Positions 3,860 through 20,121 of a stretch of DNA of 22,995 nt are shown here, in pieces; within the stretch, counting starts at the first letter, position 1; the number at the start of each line of letters is the position of its first letter. The stretch lies in IMG/VR virus record IMGVR_UViG_3300009011_000331, positions 1-22,995 of that record, one strand, 5' to 3'. This DNA comes from a virus. The notes below the pieces were generated by a model. It had not been told where the DNA came from and made no database searches. It was given only the letters and a program-made list of their open reading frames with translations. The translations under genes and the position numbers were made by a program.

Positions 3860-5137
3860 CTAAATACAGACAACCTTCCATAATTGATCCAGTTTGGTGG
3901 TGTAGCTCTGACTCATCATCTCACGGCGCATCCCCCATTCAGGGTTAGTTGGCACACTTGCAGAACGCAGGGTTCCCCGGCCCCATCGTTCATTTATCTT
4001 ATCTAGCACGGTCATCACCCGCGTTGCCTCCGCCGGCTGAGACGAGGCGAACAAATCATCGGTGTACTCACCTGGCTGGCAAAGATTGAGCAGCATTACC
4101 TCAGCCTTGCTGTACTTAAAGCCTGGCCGAAATATGCGATCAACCGCACCAACCGCTGCTTGAGTAAGCAGGCGCACGTCGTCAGTGGGATACGGCATAT
4201 CCACCACCACGCCGTTCGCATACTTCGCCTCTTCTGGGTTGAACATGCCAGTACGTATGCACACGCGCACCTTTTTGCACAGCGAGTTCTGAGCGCGAAG
4301 CTTCTCGGATGCTCGCATCATGTAGGTGGCCACCGCCTCCTTGATCGGAGGCAGTTCCGTCAGCCGCTTGCCAAACATTCGGCTACAGCAGATCTCCTGC
4401 TTTGGTGGATCGGGTTCGTCTAACTCCAGACAAGAGGTACCGCCCAGCTCTCTGGCCGTCTTCTCGATCACAACGCTGAACTTCTTACGGAGCGTCCACG
4501 GATCCGCCTTAGCGAGGTCCATGGCCGACTTGATACCCAACGCTCCAAGATGGAGTTTCATCTTGCGGCCAACACCCCACACTTCCGCCACGTCCGTGTT
4601 GCGCAACACCCAGTCGCGCTTAACCGGGTCCGTAATGTTGACCACCCCACCGGTCTGAGACTGCAGGCGCTTCGCGGTGTGGTTTGCCAACTTTGCCAGG
4701 GTCTTTGTATGAGCGATGCCTACACCGACAGGAATGCCGGTACAGCGAAGTACCTGAGCGCGAATCTGTCGGCCTAAGGCATCCAGCCCACCCATACCGG
4801 TCAGGTCGGCGAATGCCTCGTCAATGCTGTACACCTCAACTGCCGGCACCATCGCCTCGATCAGGCTCATTACGCGCTCGCTCATGTCGCCGTACAGCGC
4901 GTAATTTGAGGAGAACGGGACAATGCCGTGCTGCTTGAGCTTGTGCTTGATCTGGAAATATGGCTCGCCCATCTTGATGAAGGGCTTGGCATCGTAACTA
5001 CGGGCGATAACACAGCCATCGTTGTTACTCAGTACCACGATGGGCACTTTCGCTAGGTCAGGCCGGAACACTCGCTCGCAACTGGCATAGAAGCTGTTGC
5101 AGTCAATCAGCGCAAACGTCGGCTCTTGCTTAGACAT
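3860..5137 (-). CDS. umuC: UmuC-type Y-family DNA polymerase V catalytic subunit
   Basis: A 425-residue translesion polymerase. Catalytic acids are visible: D12 in [16 protein letters not shown], and D106 and E107 in [10 protein letters not shown]. The fingers motif [15 protein letters not shown] (residues 37-51), the HhH region around [12 protein letters not shown] and the little-finger domain follow, so the gene is full length. With processed UmuD' it forms Pol V, which copies past DNA lesions. The ATG at 5137 lies inside the end of umuD (8-bp overlap), so the pair is translationally coupled. It is convergent with the HEPN gene, with a 21-bp gap. Expression should follow umuD from the LexA-box promoter at 5575-5590. 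Confidence 0.97.
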
Positions 5138-5555
5138 GGCTACGCACTGTGCTGGTGATCACGCCCCAGATTGACAGTTCGTCGCCTTCGAGAACGTAGC
5201 GCGCCGGGTATTTGGGATTCTCTGATAGAAGAACCACCTCCCGACCGCGCTTGCAAAGACGCTTGCAGACGGGCTCATTGTTCAGCAGCGCCACCACCAC
5301 ATGTCCATGGGCCGGCTCAATGGCGCGATCCACCACCGCGAGGTCCCCGTCGAAAATGCCAATCCCTTGCATGCTTTCCCCGGTGATTGCTACCAGGTAC
5401 ACATGCGGCGCACGGATATTTAGAACCTCATCCAATGAGATGTGCTGCTCAATGTGATCCGCTGCCGGCGAAGGAAAGCCGGCCGGCACCTGGAAAGAGC
5501 ACAAAGGCAGCTTCGCGCCTACCTCAGCAATGGGACCTAAAATGGTGAAGCTCAT
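5130..5555 (-). CDS. umuD: UmuD-type LexA-like self-cleaving protein
   Basis: A 141-residue S24-family peptidase. The cleavage site is A25-G26 in [15 protein letters not shown] (Cys-Gly in E. coli UmuD), the nucleophile is S61 in ITGESMQG, and the general base is K98 in EPVCKRL. RecA filaments stimulate self-cleavage to UmuD', the active partner of UmuC. The start at 5555 lies 19 bases from a LexA box. The next gene, umuC, overlaps by 8 bp. The alternative reading, a phage LexA/CI-like repressor, is unlikely because no N-terminal DNA-binding domain is present and umuC follows directly. Confidence 0.95.
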
Positions 5556-5655: not shown

Positions 5656-6351
5656 ATGTGCGGACGATTCGTGCAGTACGAAGGGATGGCGATCTTCATC
5701 GAAGAACTGAGCCCGCAGATAGAGCTGTTCAGCGGTTACGACGCTCAGCCCATTGATCGCTACAACGTCGCTCCGTCGACGCGGGTGCAGTTGCTGCACG
5801 CCGCAGTGGATGGACTGCATATTGATGCAGTCAGATGGGGATGGGCGCCGTTTTGGGCCAAGGGCAAACGCCCTGACCCAATTAACGCACGAGTAGAGAC
5901 GGTCACCACGGGAAAGTTCTTCAAACAACTATGGCCAAATGGCAGAGCTCTGGTGCCGAGTGAAGGATGGTATGAATGGGTCAAAGATCCTGACGATCCG
6001 AAGAAAAAACAACCTTACTTCATTCGCCTGAAGAGTCAGAAACCCATGTTCTTTGGCGCACTCGCACAGGTTTCCCCCGGCCTAGATCCCCATGATGGCG
6101 ACGGATTCGTGATCATTACCGCCGCCAGTGATCAGGGAATGGTGGATATACATGACCGAAAACCTTTAGTACTGCCCCCTGAATTCGCCAGGGAATGGCT
6201 TAATCCAGACCTTACCGCTGACGGGGCCGCAGAGATCGCAAGAGAGTGCTGCCAACCAACTAAAGACTTTGAGTGGTACCCAGTAGGCAAAGACGTGGGG
6301 AACGTTAGAAATCAAGGGCCCGCTCTGATCATCCCTGCGGATGAAAATTAA
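5656..6351 (+). CDS. SRAP-domain (HMCES/YedK-like) abasic-site protein
   Basis: A 231-residue SOS-response-associated protein. The family's active-site residues are all present: C2 (exposed after Met removal in MCGRF), N77 in PINARVET, E107 in SEGWYEW and H166 in DIHDRKPLVLP. SRAP proteins form a thiazolidine crosslink with abasic sites in single-stranded DNA and shield them. A purine-rich GGAGAGGGGC stretch precedes the ATG. It is divergent from umuDC with a shared LexA box, so lesion bypass and abasic-site protection probably switch on together when the prophage or host is damaged. Length is normal for the family. The gene symbol yedK is used in E. coli, but orthology is not proven here. 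Confidence 0.93.
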   Translation: MCGRFVQYEGMAIFIEELSPQIELFSGYDAQPIDRYNVAPSTRVQLLHAAVDGLHIDAVRWGWAPFWAKGKRPDPINARVETVTTGKFFKQLWPNGRALVPSEGWYEWVKDPDDPKKKQPYFIRLKSQKPMFFGALAQVSPGLDPHDGDGFVIITAASDQGMVDIHDRKPLVLPPEFAREWLNPDLTADGAAEIARECCQPTKDFEWYPVGKDVGNVRNQGPALIIPADEN

Positions 6352-11436: not shown

Positions 11437-14400
11437 TTATGTATGGGCATCGTCGTAAAGATTGCGCCGGGCTTCTTGCTGAGCGGCATCACTGAGTGCC
11501 CGTTGCATCAAGGGCATAAGTTGCTGAACGAACTGTTGCGGATCCTTGGCATCGCCCTCGACCGTGACCGGCATGCTCAGCGAGTAGCTGAACTTCTGGT
11601 CCACACGTGCAGGGTCTGGTTTGGGCGCAGGAGGCGCTTGAATAACCAGGTTCGCAGGTTTGGAGGCGACAGGCGCCGCCAACGAACGAGTGACGTCACC
11701 TAATGCTGGCCTCATCGGCATCATCAGCGGGGCTGCTGGCTTCCGTGCTACTGCCTCGATTAGAGGCTGCGGACGAGCTTGTATATCGACAGCGCGGTTG
11801 TCCGACGAGGGAACCGTCTGAGCCAACGGTTGCGTGACAGGTACGACAGGAACAACAGCCTTTCCAATGCCCTGCTCAGCCGGTGCAGACTCAACCAAGA
11901 CAGGTTGCCGAGCAGCAAAGCTATTCGCCATCGTCGCGAGACTGGGTACTGCCGGACCAGGCCTCGGCGCCATCAACAGAGGCGTAATGGGTGCGGTAGG
12001 CTCTTCAGGTTTATCGCTACCAAATAGCGAAAGCCCAGCCCAGCCGCCTACCTCCTGGCCTCCCATGCTGCCAAGATAAGCGCCAACCAACCCGCCTACG
12101 GCGGTACCGATAATTGGCACCACCGATCCAATCGCAGCACCCGCTGCAGCGCCCGCCATAGTGCCTGCCAGCGATCCGGCGGCCTCTCCATAGCCCTGCG
12201 CTTTCTCATCCTGAGTTTGCGCCGTCTGGAAGGTGTTGAGGACCATTGCCCCGGATTCCATCAACGCGCCGCCAGGTATCAACTTGCCCACCTTTCCAAC
12301 CTTGCCAGCCACCGCTGTCAGCCTGGAAGCAACGTTAGGTCTGGGCGGTACCGGTGGAACTGGGGGCGGAACGGGTGGCCTTGGACGCGGAGGCCTCGCC
12401 GGGCGACGCCGTGGAGGCCTGCCACCCCGGCGACCGCTTCGACGCTGCGGCCCCGCACCGCCGCCTCCACCCATCGCTGCCGCGTTGACGACGAAAACCT
12501 TTTTGATTCCATCATCATTATTCCCGCCGCTATCACCACCCCCTTCTCCGTCTCCGCCGGCGGCCTCTTGAATCAGTGACACCACCTTCAACCCAGTCGA
12601 CACCACGTCAAAGCCGCCGGCAGGTTTATCCGAATCCGGATTACCGCCACCCTCCGGCGCATTCTCGTCATCAGCCCCATTTCCCCTCACGGTGGCTACT
12701 GCCTTCAGCCCTGTTTCTACCAACGCCAACGCGAGGCCGGCCTTGCCCTTCGGTGCGGGGTTGCCGTTGCCGTCGCCGGCGCCAGCGCCATCCTCGGCAT
12801 TGGTAACAAAGACTTTTTGCACCTCATCCCGCTTACCACCCAGCGTCCCCCGAGCAAGGTTGATAAGGCCTTTGCCGACCTTGAAAGCCTGGAAGGCCGC
12901 CACGACGGTCCCAACAGCACCCACTGCCACAGTGGTGCCACTGACAATCTTCGGAAACTCATCCGCCAGTTTGGCAATGCTATTGCCGACCTTCGTCAGC
13001 CCATCCGCTGCCAGGTCTGTGAGCGGCCGCAACGCATTACCGATGCTGGTCATCGACGCTTCCATGCTCGATGTCGCCGCGCTCCATTTGGAGTTGGACG
13101 TCTCGCGAGCCTTGGCTGCATCAGCCTCGATCTTGGCCTTGCCATCGGTTTCCTTGATGGTGGTCATGTTGTCTTTGATCGTGCTGCCGTACTTGATCTG
13201 CGCGAGCAAGCCGTCACTGGCACTCTGGTCACTGACGATGTTCGCCAAACCAGCCGCCTGAATCAGCGCGACCATCGCCTGCTCTTCCTCGGCGCTGCCA
13301 TCCTTGGACGCCTTAATTTTGGCCTTTAGCGCCGCAACCTTCTTGGCCGTGGCTGGATCCTGTTTTTGGATCAACTGCTCGCTGAGCATGATGAAGGCTT
13401 CGACGGGGTTGGACGCCTTGCCGCTTTTGGTAGCCGCCAAGATCGAGCCCGCCAGGTCATAACCCTGCTTCGCGAACCGCTCCTGGCTGGTGCTGCTGAT
13501 CACCGCGTTGAGCAGGTTATTCATGTTGGTCGCGGCCGCTGCCGCGTCCTGGGTTTGCGAGAACTGCGACTGCAAACTCGCACCGAGGAAACGCACGGCC
13601 TCCGGGCCTTCCATGCCCAAACGTTTGATCGTGCCGAGCAGAGCCGGCATGTACTTGGCCATGTCCTTGGGACCGAACGCGCCAATGTCACCAGCAGCCG
13701 CCACCTGGCCGAGCATGGCGCCCATGTCTTCCTTCTTGACCCCGGCCTCCTTGAAGGCGCTGAACAAGGTGGCGATGGTTTCCGCTTCCATGCCTTGTCC
13801 GTCGACCAGGTCCGCAATCAGCGGTGCATAGTCCACCGACTCCTCCCAGTCGATACCCTTCTCGATCAAGCCACCGACCGCCCGGGCCAAAGCCTGCTGG
13901 CCCATGCCCTTTTTCGCGGCCACTTCACTGATCTTGTCGGCCATCTGCTGTTCGGCGTCCGTGCCGGCGGTGTGTGCCCACAACGCCATTTGCCGAATTT
14001 GTGTCTGATAGTTGGCCGAAACCTTGGTGGGAATAGCGATTAGCGCAGTGGCGGCCGCCGCCTTGCCCAGCGTGCCAGTAAGGCCCTCTTTGCCCTCCTT
14101 GATTTGAGAGTACCCGGTGGCTTTCAGATCAGCCTTACGGGCGACTTGCTCCATGGTCTGGTAAGCCTTGGCAAGATTACGTACCTCGACACCCTGCTTC
14201 TTCAGGGTGCTGAGGTTAGATTCCAATTTGCGCAGCAACGTGCTGGCACCAGCGGCGCCGCTGTCGTTGGCCTTCTTCCATTCTTCCCGCAGACGGATAG
14301 TGTCGCCAATCGTACGCTGCAGCACCCGAGCCTTGGTGCCTTGGGCTTCGAGCTGCTTGATTCGCCCCTGGACATCCTTGAAAGCGGTGCCAACCGTAGA

Positions 14401-14448
14401 GCTGACGGCGCCGCCAATCACCAGGCCGAGCGCGAGTTTGTTTGCCAT
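11437..14448 (-). CDS. Tape measure protein (P2 gpT-like)
   Basis: A 1003-residue protein that sets tail length and sits inside the tail tube. The N-terminal 450 residues are helical with TMP-type repeats (KISEVAAKKGMGQQALARAV, FLGASLQSQFSQTQDA). A hydrophobic segment lies around 497-516 (TTVAVGAVGTVVAAF). A long Gly/Asn/Asp-rich linker follows, then an Arg/Pro-rich stretch at about 667-706 and a glycine-zipper membrane-like segment at about 756-803 (GTMAGAAAGAAIGSVVPIIG). The C-terminus is rich in Pro, Ala and Gln. Hydrophobic segments in tape measures are thought to enter the host membrane. GGGAG precedes the ATG. It follows the E/E' chaperone frames directly. Confidence 0.92.
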   Translation of the reverse strand: MANKLALGLVIGGAVSSTVGTAFKDVQGRIKQLEAQGTKARVLQRTIGDTIRLREEWKKANDSGAAGASTLLRKLESNLSTLKKQGVEVRNLAKAYQTMEQVARKADLKATGYSQIKEGKEGLTGTLGKAAAATALIAIPTKVSANYQTQIRQMALWAHTAGTDAEQQMADKISEVAAKKGMGQQALARAVGGLIEKGIDWEESVDYAPLIADLVDGQGMEAETIATLFSAFKEAGVKKEDMGAMLGQVAAAGDIGAFGPKDMAKYMPALLGTIKRLGMEGPEAVRFLGASLQSQFSQTQDAAAAATNMNNLLNAVISSTSQERFAKQGYDLAGSILAATKSGKASNPVEAFIMLSEQLIQKQDPATAKKVAALKAKIKASKDGSAEEEQAMVALIQAAGLANIVSDQSASDGLLAQIKYGSTIKDNMTTIKETDGKAKIEADAAKARETSNSKWSAATSSMEASMTSIGNALRPLTDLAADGLTKVGNSIAKLADEFPKIVSGTTVAVGAVGTVVAAFQAFKVGKGLINLARGTLGGKRDEVQKVFVTNAEDGAGAGDGNGNPAPKGKAGLALALVETGLKAVATVRGNGADDENAPEGGGNPDSDKPAGGFDVVSTGLKVVSLIQEAAGGDGEGGGDSGGNNDDGIKKVFVVNAAAMGGGGGAGPQRRSGRRGGRPPRRRPARPPRPRPPVPPPVPPVPPRPNVASRLTAVAGKVGKVGKLIPGGALMESGAMVLNTFQTAQTQDEKAQGYGEAAGSLAGTMAGAAAGAAIGSVVPIIGTAVGGLVGAYLGSMGGQEVGGWAGLSLFGSDKPEEPTAPITPLLMAPRPGPAVPSLATMANSFAARQPVLVESAPAEQGIGKAVVPVVPVTQPLAQTVPSSDNRAVDIQARPQPLIEAVARKPAAPLMMPMRPALGDVTRSLAAPVASKPANLVIQAPPAPKPDPARVDQKFSYSLSMPVTVEGDAKDPQQFVQQLMPLMQRALSDAAQQEARRNLYDDAHT

Positions 14449-14486: not shown

Positions 14487-14663
14487 TCAATCCGAGAGCC
14501 ACCAGACCATCTCGGCAAACGGCATGGCCTGGATCTCGGCGGCGGAAAATCCGGTTTCCGCTGCCAAGCGCTTGGCCGCCAGTTTCAGCAGCGTGGGGTT
14601 AAACCCCGTCGTCCTGCACCAGGCGAAAATAACCGGCCTGCAGGCGGTGGTAGTCCACCAGCT
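14487..14663 (-). CDS. E' frame: frameshift extension of tail assembly chaperone
   Basis: The frame +1 to gpE is open from just after its own TGA (14664-14666) to a TGA at 14487-14489. Its C-terminal end reads LAAKRLAAETGFSAAEIQAM followed by PFAEMVWWLSD, which has the P2 GpE pattern (aromatic-SxAExxxM...E). It has no good start codon, so it is probably made as an E-E' fusion by ribosome slippage, as known for P2, lambda and Mu. The shift must happen between 14663 and the E stop at 14599. Candidate sites are TTT before C (14626-14628) or GGG before G (14605-14607). The listed span is the open frame, not a separate translation product. Confidence 0.6.
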   Translation of the reverse strand, partial: SWWTTTACRPVIFAWCRTTGFNPTLLKLAAKRLAAETGFSAAEIQAMPFAEMVWWLSD

Positions 14664-14907
14664 TCAGGCCCTCCAGATCCTGCTGACCGGCTTCGCAAAG
14701 ACCGGCGAACAGCATCAGTTCGCGCTGCTCTTCGTCGTCGCCCGAGGCACGATCTGCGGCACGCACTTCGCGCACCGTGGGTGAGCGAATGGTCAAGGTA
14801 TCGACCTTGACGCCATTGACCTCGGAAGGCCGGGACAGGGTGATTGTTGCGTGTTCGGCGGTCAGCTTCAGCCAGGTGGGAAGCTTTTTCAGTTCAGGAG
14901 TAGCCAT
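14599..14907 (-). CDS. Tail assembly chaperone (P2 gpE / Mu gp41-like)
   Basis: A 102-residue protein of the phage tail assembly chaperone family (E/41/14). The signature order is PTWLKLTAEHATITLSRPSE, VDTLTIRSPTVREVRAAD and DYHRLQAGYF. It binds the tape measure and guides tube polymerisation but is absent from the finished tail. It lies between the tube gene and the tape measure, the universal position for this role. AAGGA precedes the ATG at 14907. The stop codon lies inside a palindrome (GGGGTTAAACCCC at 14595-14607), and a second frame continues beyond it. Confidence 0.9.
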   Translation of the reverse strand: MATPELKKLPTWLKLTAEHATITLSRPSEVNGVKVDTLTIRSPTVREVRAADRASGDDEEQRELMLFAGLCEAGQQDLEGLKLVDYHRLQAGYFRLVQDDGV

Positions 14908-14919
14908 TCGATTAATTCC

Positions 14920-15423
14920 TTAGAGGCCCAGGTCGCCGCGCATGGAGGCCAGTTGATCCACACCGTCGATCACGCGGATCGCAGCAACCATGTCGATTTC
15001 GTAGATGAGGCGGCCAGCGATTTCCAGCTTGTAGTAGCTGACCGCAATCGAGTATTTGAACTCGGCTTTGTCACCCGGCTTCCAGTCGCCTGGGTCCAGC
15101 TCTTTGAGCATCCCGCGCAAGGTCGCCACCACCGCAGTGGTCTGCCCCTTTTGCCCTTTGAAGGAACCGCGATAAACGCCGTTGAAGGCTGTTTGATCCG
15201 CCAGCCCGAAAAACTTCATCGCTTCGCGGCGTACGCCGTTAGTGGTGAATGTGGCTTCCATTTTTTCCAGGCCGACGTCCATCTCGATGGGGCCTGCCAT
15301 CCCGCCGCCCCGATACTCGTCGGTCTTAACTACCAGCTTGGGCAAGCCCAGGCTGGGTACGTCGCCGGTGAAGTTGATGCCGTCGACGAACAGGTTGGTG
15401 TTGTAAAGCACTTGAGGAATCAT
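14920..15423 (-). CDS. Tail tube protein (P2 gpFII-like)
   Basis: A 167-residue major tail tube subunit. It has the family's opening MIPQVLYNTNLFVDGINFTG, the central YRGGGMAGPIEMDVGLEKME and a C-terminal beta-rich part with YYKLEIAGRLIYEIDM. Hexameric rings of this protein form the inner tube that the sheath contracts around. It starts 12 bases after the sheath stop, with AAGGAGG in the gap, so the two main tail proteins share a transcript. Confidence 0.95.
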   Translation of the reverse strand: MIPQVLYNTNLFVDGINFTGDVPSLGLPKLVVKTDEYRGGGMAGPIEMDVGLEKMEATFTTNGVRREAMKFFGLADQTAFNGVYRGSFKGQKGQTTAVVATLRGMLKELDPGDWKPGDKAEFKYSIAVSYYKLEIAGRLIYEIDMVAAIRVIDGVDQLASMRGDLGL

Positions 15424-15435
15424 TGAGCGGCCTCC

Positions 15436-16608
15436 TTAGGCGGCGGTTTCCAGGACTTCGGTGAGCCACTGATTGGTGACCTCGACCCGGAAAATCGGGT
15501 TCTCGGCAGGCGGCACGTCGGTGAAGCGAATGTTCCAGTACACCTTGCCCTGCTCCAACTGGCTGACCGTGTTTAGCTCGGTGTCGGCGAACACCTCGAA
15601 GTTGATCACCGCGCCTTGGTTTTTCAGGTCCTGCATGAACGCCTGCAGGCCGTCGGTCACATCCTTGATGTAGGTCTTGGTGATTCCACGGTCGACCGCC
15701 CACTTGTGCCCGGCCAGGATCGCGTCCATGACGATATCGACGGTGCGAACACGGGTGACAAACGCCCACTTCGGATCCGCCGACAGCGTGCGGTTACCCC
15801 ACAAGCGGTAGCCGCCGTCACGGATGATCGTGGTGATATTGGCGTTGTTGAGCAGGTTGGCCCGGCAGGTTTCGTCACCATCCAGAAACTCGACTGGACG
15901 CGAGGTGCCGGTAATGCCAACGAACTCTTTGTTCGACGGCGATGACCAGAAGCCGTACTCAGCATCCGTCCAAGCGAACAAACCAGCGGCGAAGGCCGAG
16001 GCCGGCGCGTTGACGGTTTTGCTCTGCAGCGTGTCCCACAACTGCACACCCGGATCGACCAGGAAACAGCGCTTGCTGCCGAACTCCTGGGCGTAGGCCA
16101 TGGCAGCCTCATCAGTGGTGTTCGGCCCATCGAGAATTGCAATGGCCCGCAGCTTGCCGGCTAACGCGTCCAGCGCAGTAGCAACCGCCTGGGTCGCGGT
16201 GTGACCCGGGGCAATCAGCAGCCGCGGCTGTGCGTTGAAGCGGCTTTTGCCGTCCAACAACGCCTGCATGCCGGTACGCTGCCCCGACGCCAGGACACCG
16301 CCGATAATTGAGGAGGTCTGCTGGGCAGGGTCTTCAACTTTGGCGACACCGCAGCCGATAACCACGGCTTTCGCACGGACGAAAATAGCCTTGCATGCAC
16401 GCGTGATCGCTGAGTCTTCGCCCCAAGCGGCAACCGCTTCGCGCTCACTGGTGATCAGCGTCAGTTCGTTGGGTTTGGCGGATGCTGTGGGAAGTACAGT
16501 GAAGGTGTCGCACAGCCCAATAATGGACGACGACGGCAACGCAATAGTCCGTGCCCCGGTATCCACCAGGGTGACGGTAACGCCGTGAAAACGACCGGAA
16601 GAGGCCAT
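15436..16608 (-). CDS. Contractile tail sheath protein (P2 gpFI-like)
   Basis: A 390-residue sheath subunit. Typical stretches are FHGVTVTLVDTGARTIALPS near the N-terminus, RLLIAPGHTATQAVATAL, and the conserved C-terminal domain with GYRLWGNRTLSADPKW, FVTRVRTVDIVMDAI and NPIFRVEVTNQW. The length equals P2 FI. It shows that the particle is a contractile (myovirus or R-type) tail. GGAGA lies 9 bases upstream of the ATG. An intrinsic terminator (16628-16648) directly precedes this ribosome-binding site, so sheath expression may need its own promoter or antitermination. Confidence 0.96.
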   Translation of the reverse strand: MASSGRFHGVTVTLVDTGARTIALPSSSIIGLCDTFTVLPTASAKPNELTLITSEREAVAAWGEDSAITRACKAIFVRAKAVVIGCGVAKVEDPAQQTSSIIGGVLASGQRTGMQALLDGKSRFNAQPRLLIAPGHTATQAVATALDALAGKLRAIAILDGPNTTDEAAMAYAQEFGSKRCFLVDPGVQLWDTLQSKTVNAPASAFAAGLFAWTDAEYGFWSSPSNKEFVGITGTSRPVEFLDGDETCRANLLNNANITTIIRDGGYRLWGNRTLSADPKWAFVTRVRTVDIVMDAILAGHKWAVDRGITKTYIKDVTDGLQAFMQDLKNQGAVINFEVFADTELNTVSQLEQGKVYWNIRFTDVPPAENPIFRVEVTNQWLTEVLETAA

Positions 16609-16796: not shown

Positions 16797-17765
16797 ATGT
16801 CTAACCCCGTCTTGAACACAAATATTCGTTACCCAAGCTTTGACCTGATGCGGCTACTGCTGGCGGTCGAGGTGGTTGTCGTCCACACCTGGGCTTCGCT
16901 GGATCCTCATTTTAGTTGGCCCGGTTTCATCCGAGCGGTGCCCGCATTTCTCGCGGTCAGTGGTTTTTTGGTGCTTAAGAGTTTCGCTAATACAGGCTCT
17001 TGGACCGCGTTTGCCAGGAAGCGGGCATTGCGAATTTTCCCGGCGCTGATCACTTCGTTGTTGTTGGGTTACGTCCTGCTCGATTACACATTTCTGATCA
17101 ACTCGCTCACGGTCTGGGTCACTGGCGGCTTGATGATGCCGCCCCATACCAATGCGGCTTTATGGTCCTTGGCTTGGGAGGAGCTTGCCTATGCAGTGCT
17201 GGCAATTCTCTGGGCGTTGGGAGCGTATAAGAGGCCTGTGTATATCTGGATACTGCTGGCAGCGGCGAGTGTGATTTCCTGGAAAGTCACCACAATGCCG
17301 ATTAGCCCCTACTATCACGTCCTCTCGTACCTGGCGCCTGCGTTCTTCACCGGGAACCTGATGTTCCTGCATCAAGAGCGCTTAATGCGATTGGGCTCAG
17401 TGCTTCCGTGGGTGTGCTTCGTGGTCGTGTGCCTGTGGACATACATCCCGATTCCAGGCATCGGCGGCGACATGGCCCCTTCGGTGGTACAAGCATTCGC
17501 GGTCGTATGGGCTGGCATGGCCGGTGCAAAACTGATCCCGTCCAAAATCCCTGATTTGAGCTACGGGATGTACGTCTACCACATCCCGATGATTCTCTTT
17601 ATCAACGCGGTGTATAAGCCAGACAATGCCTTTCTCACAGGCACGGTGCTGACCATCGCGCTGGTACTGTTCTCCACGGCGAGCTGGTACCTCATCGAGA
17701 AACCCGCGCTAAAGCTGAAGAACCGGCGCCCCCCTGCCCCTGAGGGGCAACCAAGCGCCTCATAA
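16797..17765 (+). CDS. Acyltransferase 3 (OafA-like) family membrane protein
   Basis: A 322-residue integral membrane acyltransferase with about ten hydrophobic helices. The N-terminus carries the family motif FDLMRLLLAVEVVVVHTW (likely catalytic His in VVHTW) and a later AVSGFLVLKSF. Near the C-terminus SYGMYVYHIPMILF also fits the family. Such enzymes O-acetylate LPS O-antigen or other surface sugars. AAAGG about 8 bases upstream of the ATG supports the start. It is the only plus-strand gene in the tail block, lying between the fibre chaperone and sheath genes, with hairpins on both sides. A lysogenic-conversion role, changing the receptor to block superinfection, is likely but inferred. 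Confidence 0.88.
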   Translation: MSNPVLNTNIRYPSFDLMRLLLAVEVVVVHTWASLDPHFSWPGFIRAVPAFLAVSGFLVLKSFANTGSWTAFARKRALRIFPALITSLLLGYVLLDYTFLINSLTVWVTGGLMMPPHTNAALWSLAWEELAYAVLAILWALGAYKRPVYIWILLAAASVISWKVTTMPISPYYHVLSYLAPAFFTGNLMFLHQERLMRLGSVLPWVCFVVVCLWTYIPIPGIGGDMAPSVVQAFAVVWAGMAGAKLIPSKIPDLSYGMYVYHIPMILFINAVYKPDNAFLTGTVLTIALVLFSTASWYLIEKPALKLKNRRPPAPEGQPSAS

Positions 17766-19519: not shown

Positions 19520-20121
19520 GAGTAGATGTCCATCGTGTCGATATGATGTTCGCGACCACCGACGGCAAGGTAGCCGCTGACGTTGATGTCACGCTGAGTC
19601 GGTGGGTAAACGCTGAGTTCGTCGCCTTCGTAAACGCCGACGCCGATGAATACCGTGCCGGTGCTTTCCAGGCTGATCGCCAAGCCGGTCAGGTGCCGAC
19701 TCACCGGCTTGGCATCATCAATGAGCCAGGTCAGCTCTTCGTACATCTCCTCGGTAATGCCGGTTTCCAGCACACCCACCTTCAACGCGAAGGTACCCGG
19801 CACCCCCTTGGGCGTTGTCTGCCACCATTCCAGCACTTCGATCAGATAGCCGAGCGGCTCAACCACCCGGCGTAACGCGCCGATGGTGCCCTTGTGGGCA
19901 TGCACGTAGAACGCCGAGCGGATGGCCGAGCGCTTGACCGCTTCCGACCACCTGTTGTCCCAGCGGTCCACCGACCAGGCCCAGGCCAATTGGTGCAGCA
20001 AATGCGCCGGGCAGGTATCGGGGTTGTACAGTTTGCGCAACGGAACATCGGTGACTTCGTCGGTGGCCGCTTCAATGGCCCGCTCTAGCTGGGTGCTGTT
20101 AATCGGTAGCAGGCTCTTCAT
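19516..20121 (-). CDS. Baseplate/tail protein I (P2 gpI-like)
   Basis: A 201-residue protein of the phage tail protein I family, which links the baseplate wedges to the tail fibres. It opens MKSLLPINSTQLERAIEAAT and contains DTCPAHLLHQLAWAWSVDRWD and AFYVHAHKGTIGALRRVVEP, all typical. The start at 20121 was chosen over the longer frame (20196), because it gives an ATGA overlap with gpJ and matches the usual N-terminus. The C-terminus overlaps the fibre start in the same way. Confidence 0.92.
   Translation of the reverse strand: MKSLLPINSTQLERAIEAATDEVTDVPLRKLYNPDTCPAHLLHQLAWAWSVDRWDNRWSEAVKRSAIRSAFYVHAHKGTIGALRRVVEPLGYLIEVLEWWQTTPKGVPGTFALKVGVLETGITEEMYEELTWLIDDAKPVSRHLTGLAISLESTGTVFIGVGVYEGDELSVYPPTQRDINVSGYLAVGGREHHIDTMDIYS

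Follow-up and report, generated by a model that had tools for sequence, protein, structure and literature searches.

In the 22,995 nt of viral DNA analysed here (IMG/VR record IMGVR_UViG_3300009011_000331, positions 1 to 22,995; hereafter the window), the tail assembly chaperone gene E and an overlapping frame, E′, occupy positions 14487-14907 of the minus strand. Tail chaperone frameshifting, as seen in phages P2 and λ, is the textbook case of programmed −1 slippage. For this locus, a comparison of related sequences leads us to propose that the short chaperone gpE and a longer fusion, gpE-E′, are very probably made from one start, the fusion via a +1 slip of tRNA-Phe at UUU_C. The tetramer TTT-C is found in frame exactly once per overlap, that is, between the upstream stop of the +1 frame and the E stop, in each of 265 non-identical loci that have E′ in the +1 frame, and this conservation is far beyond chance. 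The features of the region are the following.

15436-16608, minus strand: sheath gene, upstream of the tube gene in the tail operon
14920..15423, minus strand: tail tube protein (FII), directly 5′ of E; PF04985, E-value 6.1e-58
14599..14907, minus strand: gene E, tail assembly chaperone gpE, 102 amino acids, zero frame; PF10109 Phage_TAC_7, E-value 3.9e-19; phrog_166 tail protein, E-value 5.8e-25
14664..14666, minus strand: TGA closing the E′ frame upstream, in the +1 frame, as read from the sequence
14487..14663, minus strand: E′ frame, open from stop to stop, +1 relative to gpE
14625..14628, minus strand: putative slip site TTT_C at E codon 94 (TTT 14628-14626, C 14625), context TAT TTT CGC
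14601-14599, minus strand: E stop, TAA
14490..14624, minus strand: predicted E′ segment after the shift, 45 codons, AWCRTTGF...VWWLSD, stop TGA at 14489-14487
14490..14907, minus strand: predicted fusion gpE-E′, 139 amino acids, TTTC read as one Phe
11437..14448, minus strand: tape measure protein, directly 3′ of E′; phrog_794, E-value 1.2e-112; PF10145

The order of the minus-strand operon, sheath, tube, E, E′ and tape measure, places two overlapping open reading frames (ORFs) between tube and tape measure, as in other tail chaperone loci, and the first of them belongs to a chaperone family, PF10109. The tube protein resembles the R2 pyocin tube PA0623 (E-value 1.2e-80). The second ORF is conserved across the 265 loci, has no start of its own and is homologous, by hhalign, to known E′ tails. 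As the preliminary description of the window had stated, E′ is offset +1 from gpE (14487..14663 against 14599..14907) and has no good start; the earliest ATG, GTG or TTG in its frame is a TTG located past the E stop (..AAG CGC TTG GCA..). Since the TGA at 14664-14666 closes the +1 frame, a shift must occur 3′ of that codon. The same description had seen a P2 GpE-like end in E′. Such an end is visible by eye, but E′ of the window has no match to Pfam GpE (PF06528); its best matches are weak (phrog_10636, E-value 1.4e-4, and one unrelated sub-threshold Pfam match), and NCBIfam gave nothing useful.

A direct DNA search in phages returned 1 record. Of 409 relatives found, the 80 taken first all have a +1 ORF that overlaps the E stop and has WWL and a few further residues at its end. 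A query alignment with the relative L077 at its head gave 160 relatives in a genome collection; the 80 that were kept comprise 79 titled Pseudomonas and 1 titled Pantoea. The latter is L228, a contig under the title Pantoea sp. Cy-639; its E gene is of the Pseudomonas type, with 84% identity to the query, and the genome is possibly mislabelled. In the widened set of 413 loci, window included, frames were assigned by a hidden Markov model (HMM) of E′ tails, and identical regions were removed. The 322 non-identical loci that remained have E′ in +1 in 265 cases, among them the window, and in −1 in 38; the other 19 had no assignable frame and were left out of the counts. Sixteen of these 19 matched weakly, at 38 bits or less; many come from the Pseudomonas sample, and their tails resemble −1 tails by eye, so that +1 is not universal among distant E homologues in Pseudomonas. 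One of the 265 loci, with fewer than 300 bases of region, was left out when 124 representatives were chosen at <90% identity, and L399 was further removed for the tree and tetramer tests, which thus used 123 representatives. E′ is truncated in L183 and L208, and its tail is broken in L473.

Alignment of the related E and E′ regions located a conserved slip site, and it coincides with the TTT-C (14626-14628) that had been named beforehand as one of two candidate slip points. Three contexts predominate among the 265 loci, TAT TTT CGC (180), TAC TTT CGC (46) and TAT TTT CGT (29); the rarer ones are TAC TTT CGT (5), TAT TTT CGA (2), ACC TTT CTG (2) and CGA TTT CAA (1). A CGN codon directly follows TTT in 262 of them. 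The site has moved in L364 and L377, where TTT-C lies one codon further 3′, in GGT TAY ACC TTT CTG. The E stop is 6 to 23 codons 3′ of the slip site (6-9 codons in 243/265 loci, 23 in the R-pyocin type), and the closest upstream +1-frame stops are 7 codons before it in L395 and 3 in the Komp_PAO1_1 group.

The slip phenylalanine is encoded by TTT in 124/124 representatives, the other E phenylalanines in 72/204, and a conserved Phe 27 codons 5′ of the slip in 38/116. To count synonymous changes by parsimony, we used a DNA tree from which the slip codon and two codons on each side had been excluded. On this tree the slip codon needs 0 synonymous changes in the 123 representatives and the Phe 27 codons upstream needs 22, the remaining conserved upstream codons needing 8 to 48. 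Downstream, codons +1, +2, +3, +5 and +6 need 15, 6, 6, 7 and 1. Synonymous diversity, as observed over expected, is 0.95 for codons −60 to −31 and 0.86, 0.99 and 0.78 in the following blocks; it is 1.17 at codon −1, 0.00 at the slip codon, 0.52 at +1 and 0.39 over +2 to +8. A drop that begins at the slip codon is what dual coding starting at that codon predicts.

We defined a +1 re-pairable tetramer as one in which the shifted codon is the same, or has the same first two bases with a pyrimidine third. Such a tetramer occurs at the slip codon in 123/123 representatives, at none of the other codons between −10 and +6 (0/123 each), at +7 in 22 (GGG_G) and at +8 in 3. TTT-C is therefore the only one common to all representatives. 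The other candidate put forward for the window, and a repeat noted around the E stop, are these.

14604..14607, minus strand: GGG_G, alternative slip candidate (GGG 14605-14607), rejected; in 22/123 representatives
14595..14607, no strand given: inverted repeat GGGGTTAAACCCC around the E stop, judged incidental; in 3/123 representatives and 15/265 loci

A +1 slip at GGG_G, whose end is two codons from the E stop, would allow perfect re-pairing of GGG with GGG in the window and predicts the transframe peptide LVQDDGFNPTLLK. Given how few representatives carry the tetramer, we regard this explanation as having almost no likelihood. The palindrome is present around the stop as described, but it is not kept elsewhere and does not constitute a general signal.

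The prediction that the shift departs from the usual −1 is supported by the comparison. An in-phase X_XXY_YYZ heptamer was sought in the last part of E and was found in 0/123 representatives, compared with 23/38 of the non-identical −1 loci, and the HMM places E′ in the +1 frame in all 265. These loci do not belong to the −1 slippage class. The preliminary description had also allowed for −2, which arrives at the same frame, is the shift used by phage Mu according to PMC5009743 and, in the commonest context, TAT TTT, entails a mismatch at one position only. A Mu-like slip requires that the P-site tRNA re-pair two bases upstream, and this is not what the sequences offer: tRNA-Phe would have to pair with AUU in 95, ACU in 27 and CCU in 1 of the 123 representatives, and with GAU, UGU or CGU in the second +1 clade described below (CGA, GTG and ACG contexts). 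Each of these pairings would be mismatched at the first or the second codon position, or at both, whereas the +1 codon, UUC, is a perfect match in every locus. Re-pairing thus argues for +1 rather than −2, and we consider −2 slippage very improbable. The two directions predict different transframe tryptic peptides, LQAGYFAWCR for +1 at UUU_C and LQAGYFFAWCR, with two phenylalanines, for −2.

It is useful to consider those loci in which E has been duplicated. In 50 of the 265 loci (L045, L020, L394, L396 and others), two E domains follow each other in one frame, and slippage already in the first of them would be a waste. At the codon homologous to the slip codon, the first copy has TTT in 0/50 cases, with Ser in 48, Ala in 1 and Thr in 1, while the second copy has TTT-C in 50/50, followed by CGN in 50/50; CGN is found at that place in 10/50 first copies. 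In the E tree the L396 pair stands apart from the other sampled tandem genes, so that the tandem arrangement probably arose by at least two duplications.

Could E′ be translated independently, or by re-initiation near the E stop, with no fusion at all? In 86/123 representatives the E′ frame does contain a start-like codon, counted from the upstream stop to 20 codons short of its end, and such a codon lies at most 16 codons from the slip in 61/124 and upstream of the slip in 33/124. However, 37/123 have none in the same interval, synonymous constraint is already seen from the slip codon onward, before the E stop is reached, and in the R-pyocin type, with its E stop 23 codons past the slip, much of E′ precedes that stop. 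Moreover, independent initiation would neither freeze TTT nor explain its absence from 50/50 first E copies. The sequences thus give no clear support to an independent start of E′, and translation of this kind seems to us a most improbable explanation. RNA polymerase slippage, or a frameshift due to sequencing or pseudogene formation, would account for the frame offset itself and for nothing more. The T run is only TTTT in the window and three T in other loci (e.g., TAC TTT CGC), and the same offset with an open E′ recurs across the 265 non-identical loci; this explanation can practically be set aside.

The proposed site is also present outside the clade of the window. A second +1 clade with a GpE-like tail comprises BcepMu-like phages, Komp_PAO1_1-like Pseudomonas phages and L399, in which E is a distant PF10109 relative; the PhiKM record is classed as Bcepmuvirus, and the Komp-like E′ tails were judged by eye. 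One TTT-C is found in 51/51 non-identical loci of this clade, in the contexts CGA TTT CAG (40), CGA TTT CAA (2), GTG TTT CGG (8) and ACG TTT CAA (1). CGN thus follows TTT in only 8/51, the others having CAG or CAA. With L399 counted in both sets, the two sets amount to 315 distinct loci (265 + 51). In the BcepMu-like loci L413-L475, the Arg codon before the slip is CGA in 13/13 representatives, and CGA makes up 11/161 of upstream Arg codons there; it is possible that this CGA is an E-site or pausing element.

The E tree supports each +1 clade (100/100 and 99/82) and places −1 taxa between them; two changes of the −1 label are forced by starred branches. Because this tree is built from few columns, with P2 on a long branch, the separateness of the clades is surer than the number of switches. 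Nine of the 10 phage records L083-L092 have A_AAT_TTT or G_GGT_TTT/C at the end of E and E′ in −1; L091 has no such heptamer. When E′ tails of the first clade (49 rows) are aligned with those of the −1 group (32 rows), hhalign gives a probability of 97% (E-value 1e-10), and these tails are therefore homologous, the homologous tail being reached by opposite shifts. The tails of the second clade have weak similarity to those of the first clade and of the −1 group (50% and 16%). A sample of 390 genomes of the order had matches in 20; of the 30 loci taken, whose frames were judged by eye, 6 are first-clade +1, L505 is +1 and 23 look −1. L505 ends its E gene in AAA TTT TTT CGT CAT TAA with E′ in +1, and the similar tails of L508 and L509 are in −1 with GGT TTT TTA. 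Judging from these sequences, L505 may represent a third switch, to UUU_CGU.

The first clade includes the R2 pyocin type of Pseudomonas aeruginosa. L082, from this species, encodes a tube protein identical to PA0623 of R2 pyocin and has TAC TTT CGC in E, with E′ in +1. Its annotation places E alone between the tube and the next tail gene and leaves the stretch after E unannotated. A search of plasmids with the pyocin region gave no match.

We propose the following mechanism. The majority of ribosomes would read E through to the TAA and produce gpE. In a minority, the peptidyl-tRNA-Phe paired with UUU at codon 94, while CGC fills the A site, would move one base forward; its GAA anticodon would then lie on UUC, its better codon, the A-site codon would become GCC, and translation would continue in the +1 frame to produce gpE-E′. 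At the level of sequence, the comparison establishes the reading frames and their conservation, the position of the slip site, the dual coding downstream of it and the absence of the site where a shift would be useless; the efficiency of the shift, and that an E′ product is made at all, we infer. The roles of the two proteins are suggested by analogy with gpG and gpGT of λ (PMC5009743): coating of the tape measure would fall to gpE, and recruitment of tube subunits to the E′ tail.

Several observations weigh against the proposed slip at UUU_C or against the evidence for it. The search for a stimulator was negative, and no unusual folding was detected downstream (mean z −0.32, standard deviation 1.28, for the 40 folded of 50 representatives at <80% identity). 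A Shine-Dalgarno-like tetramer or longer lies within 20 nt upstream of the slip in only 2/123 representatives; a comparison interval has one in 41/123, but as it codes for a different part of the protein it does not serve as a valid control. Since CGC is more frequent than any other Arg codon in these genes (473/798), efficiency is not explained by a slow A-site codon. In Yersinia yopN, UUU-UGG was proposed as a +1 site and is reported to be dispensable when mutated (PMC3789692). Few synonymous changes are not unique to the slip codon, as codon +6 (Asp) needs 1 and codons +2, +3 and +5 need 6, 6 and 7, in line with dual coding. The diversity of single codons is noisy, with 0.26-0.45 at −7, −18, −29 and −30, 1.66 at +4 and 0.76 at +7. 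Finally, the 265 loci are far from independent, since the named first-clade loci are nearly all from Pseudomonas (79 of 80 kept).

Candidate stimulators were considered and dropped. A downstream hairpin gave no consistent signal in folding. The codon TAT before the slip might have been an E-site signal, as 95/122 Tyr codons there are TAT, compared with 16/113 at codon −8; we do not claim it, because the first tandem E copies also mostly have TAT (46/50).

How does the site compare with known systems? The +1 site of prfB (release factor 2) has a stop codon in the A site and a Shine-Dalgarno sequence upstream. It shares with the present site +1 re-pairing on a pyrimidine-rich codon and differs in that the A-site codon here is CGN, CTG or CAA and that a Shine-Dalgarno-like tetramer is rare, so the site is not of the prfB class. 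With P2 gpE/gpE+E′ the likeness lies in the order tube, E, E′ and tape measure, in the GpE-like E′ tail and in fusion by frameshift; the P2 shift, however, is −1 (annotated at 19685), while here E′ is in +1 and the 123 representatives lack X_XXY_YYZ. The closest likeness of the site itself is to UCC_UUU_CGU of influenza A PA-X (PMC3498833) and to UUU_CGN of plant amalgaviruses (PMC5052127), both having UUU_C in the P site and a CGN Arg codon in the A site. UUU followed by C stands at the shift point in 265/265 and 51/51 loci of the two clades here, and CGN in the A site in 262/265 of the window's set. For PA-X, a slip of P-site tRNA-Phe from UUU to UUC is given as the favoured model, and changing UUU_CGU to UUC_AGA is reported to abolish shifting (PMC3498833); no stimulator is described as evident (PMC5009743). 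For the amalgaviruses UUU_CGN was proposed, and all four CGN codons are stated to occur (PMC5052127). These are eukaryotic RNA viruses with 80S ribosomes, in contrast to a tail chaperone read by bacterial ribosomes; PA-X further differs in having UCC before UUU and a product shown by mass spectrometry, against TAY and a predicted product here. UUU also figures as one of the most slip-prone codons ahead of the stop in prfB (PMC10885494).

In phages, +1 shifts at the Pro codon CCC are described for Listeria phages PSA, A118 and A500 (PMC5009743), but they affect major tail and capsid proteins, not the chaperone, at CCC_UGA or CCC_UCC. The tail assembly chaperone of Halorubrum virus HSTV-2 is described as having a frameshift that is very likely +1 (PMC5009743), in an archaeal host, and the PRFect training set, largely of tail chaperones, is stated to hold 350 forward positive sites (PMC10885494). 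A +1 shift in a tail chaperone is thus not novel as such. As far as the matches listed go, the tail chaperones of P2-like phages, R-pyocins or Pseudomonas are not credited with a +1 site or with UUU_C; an earlier mention in the 2004 survey by Xu and co-workers is possible.

The comparison adds a large group of loci, the R2 pyocin type of P. aeruginosa among them, that appears to use +1 with a motif known from eukaryotic RNA viruses, whereas other phages arrive at a homologous E′ tail by −1. Nature provides here a series in which the site has moved, a first duplicate lacks it and the frame has switched between clades, and this series lends itself to the questions of why UUU_C shifts, what CGN contributes, if anything, and how tail assembly is set by the chaperone ratio. 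There is also a practical consequence, in that annotation misses a coding region, as in the pyocin-type record. It is tempting to suggest that UUU_C, preferably followed by CGN, is a general +1 signal of bacterial and eukaryotic ribosomes, reached by both phage clades, influenza A and the amalgaviruses, and we would give this a little less than an even chance. If it were true, the A-site Arg codon would have to act other than by tRNA scarcity, CGC being the most used Arg codon of these genes.

Other genes of the window deserve brief mention. The tape measure protein contains a low-complexity Arg/Pro-rich stretch, RRSGRRGGRPPRRRPARPPRPRPPVPPPVPP. Left of the tail cluster, at 3860-5555 (minus strand) and 5656-6351 (plus strand), lie genes for a UmuC-like polymerase (PF00817), an S24 peptidase (PF00717) and an SRAP protein (PF02586), which are SOS-linked neighbours of the cluster. 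Inside the cluster, a gene on the opposite strand adjoins the sheath (16797-17765, plus strand); it encodes an acyltransferase (PF01757, E-value 3.1e-21) that possibly modifies surface sugars.
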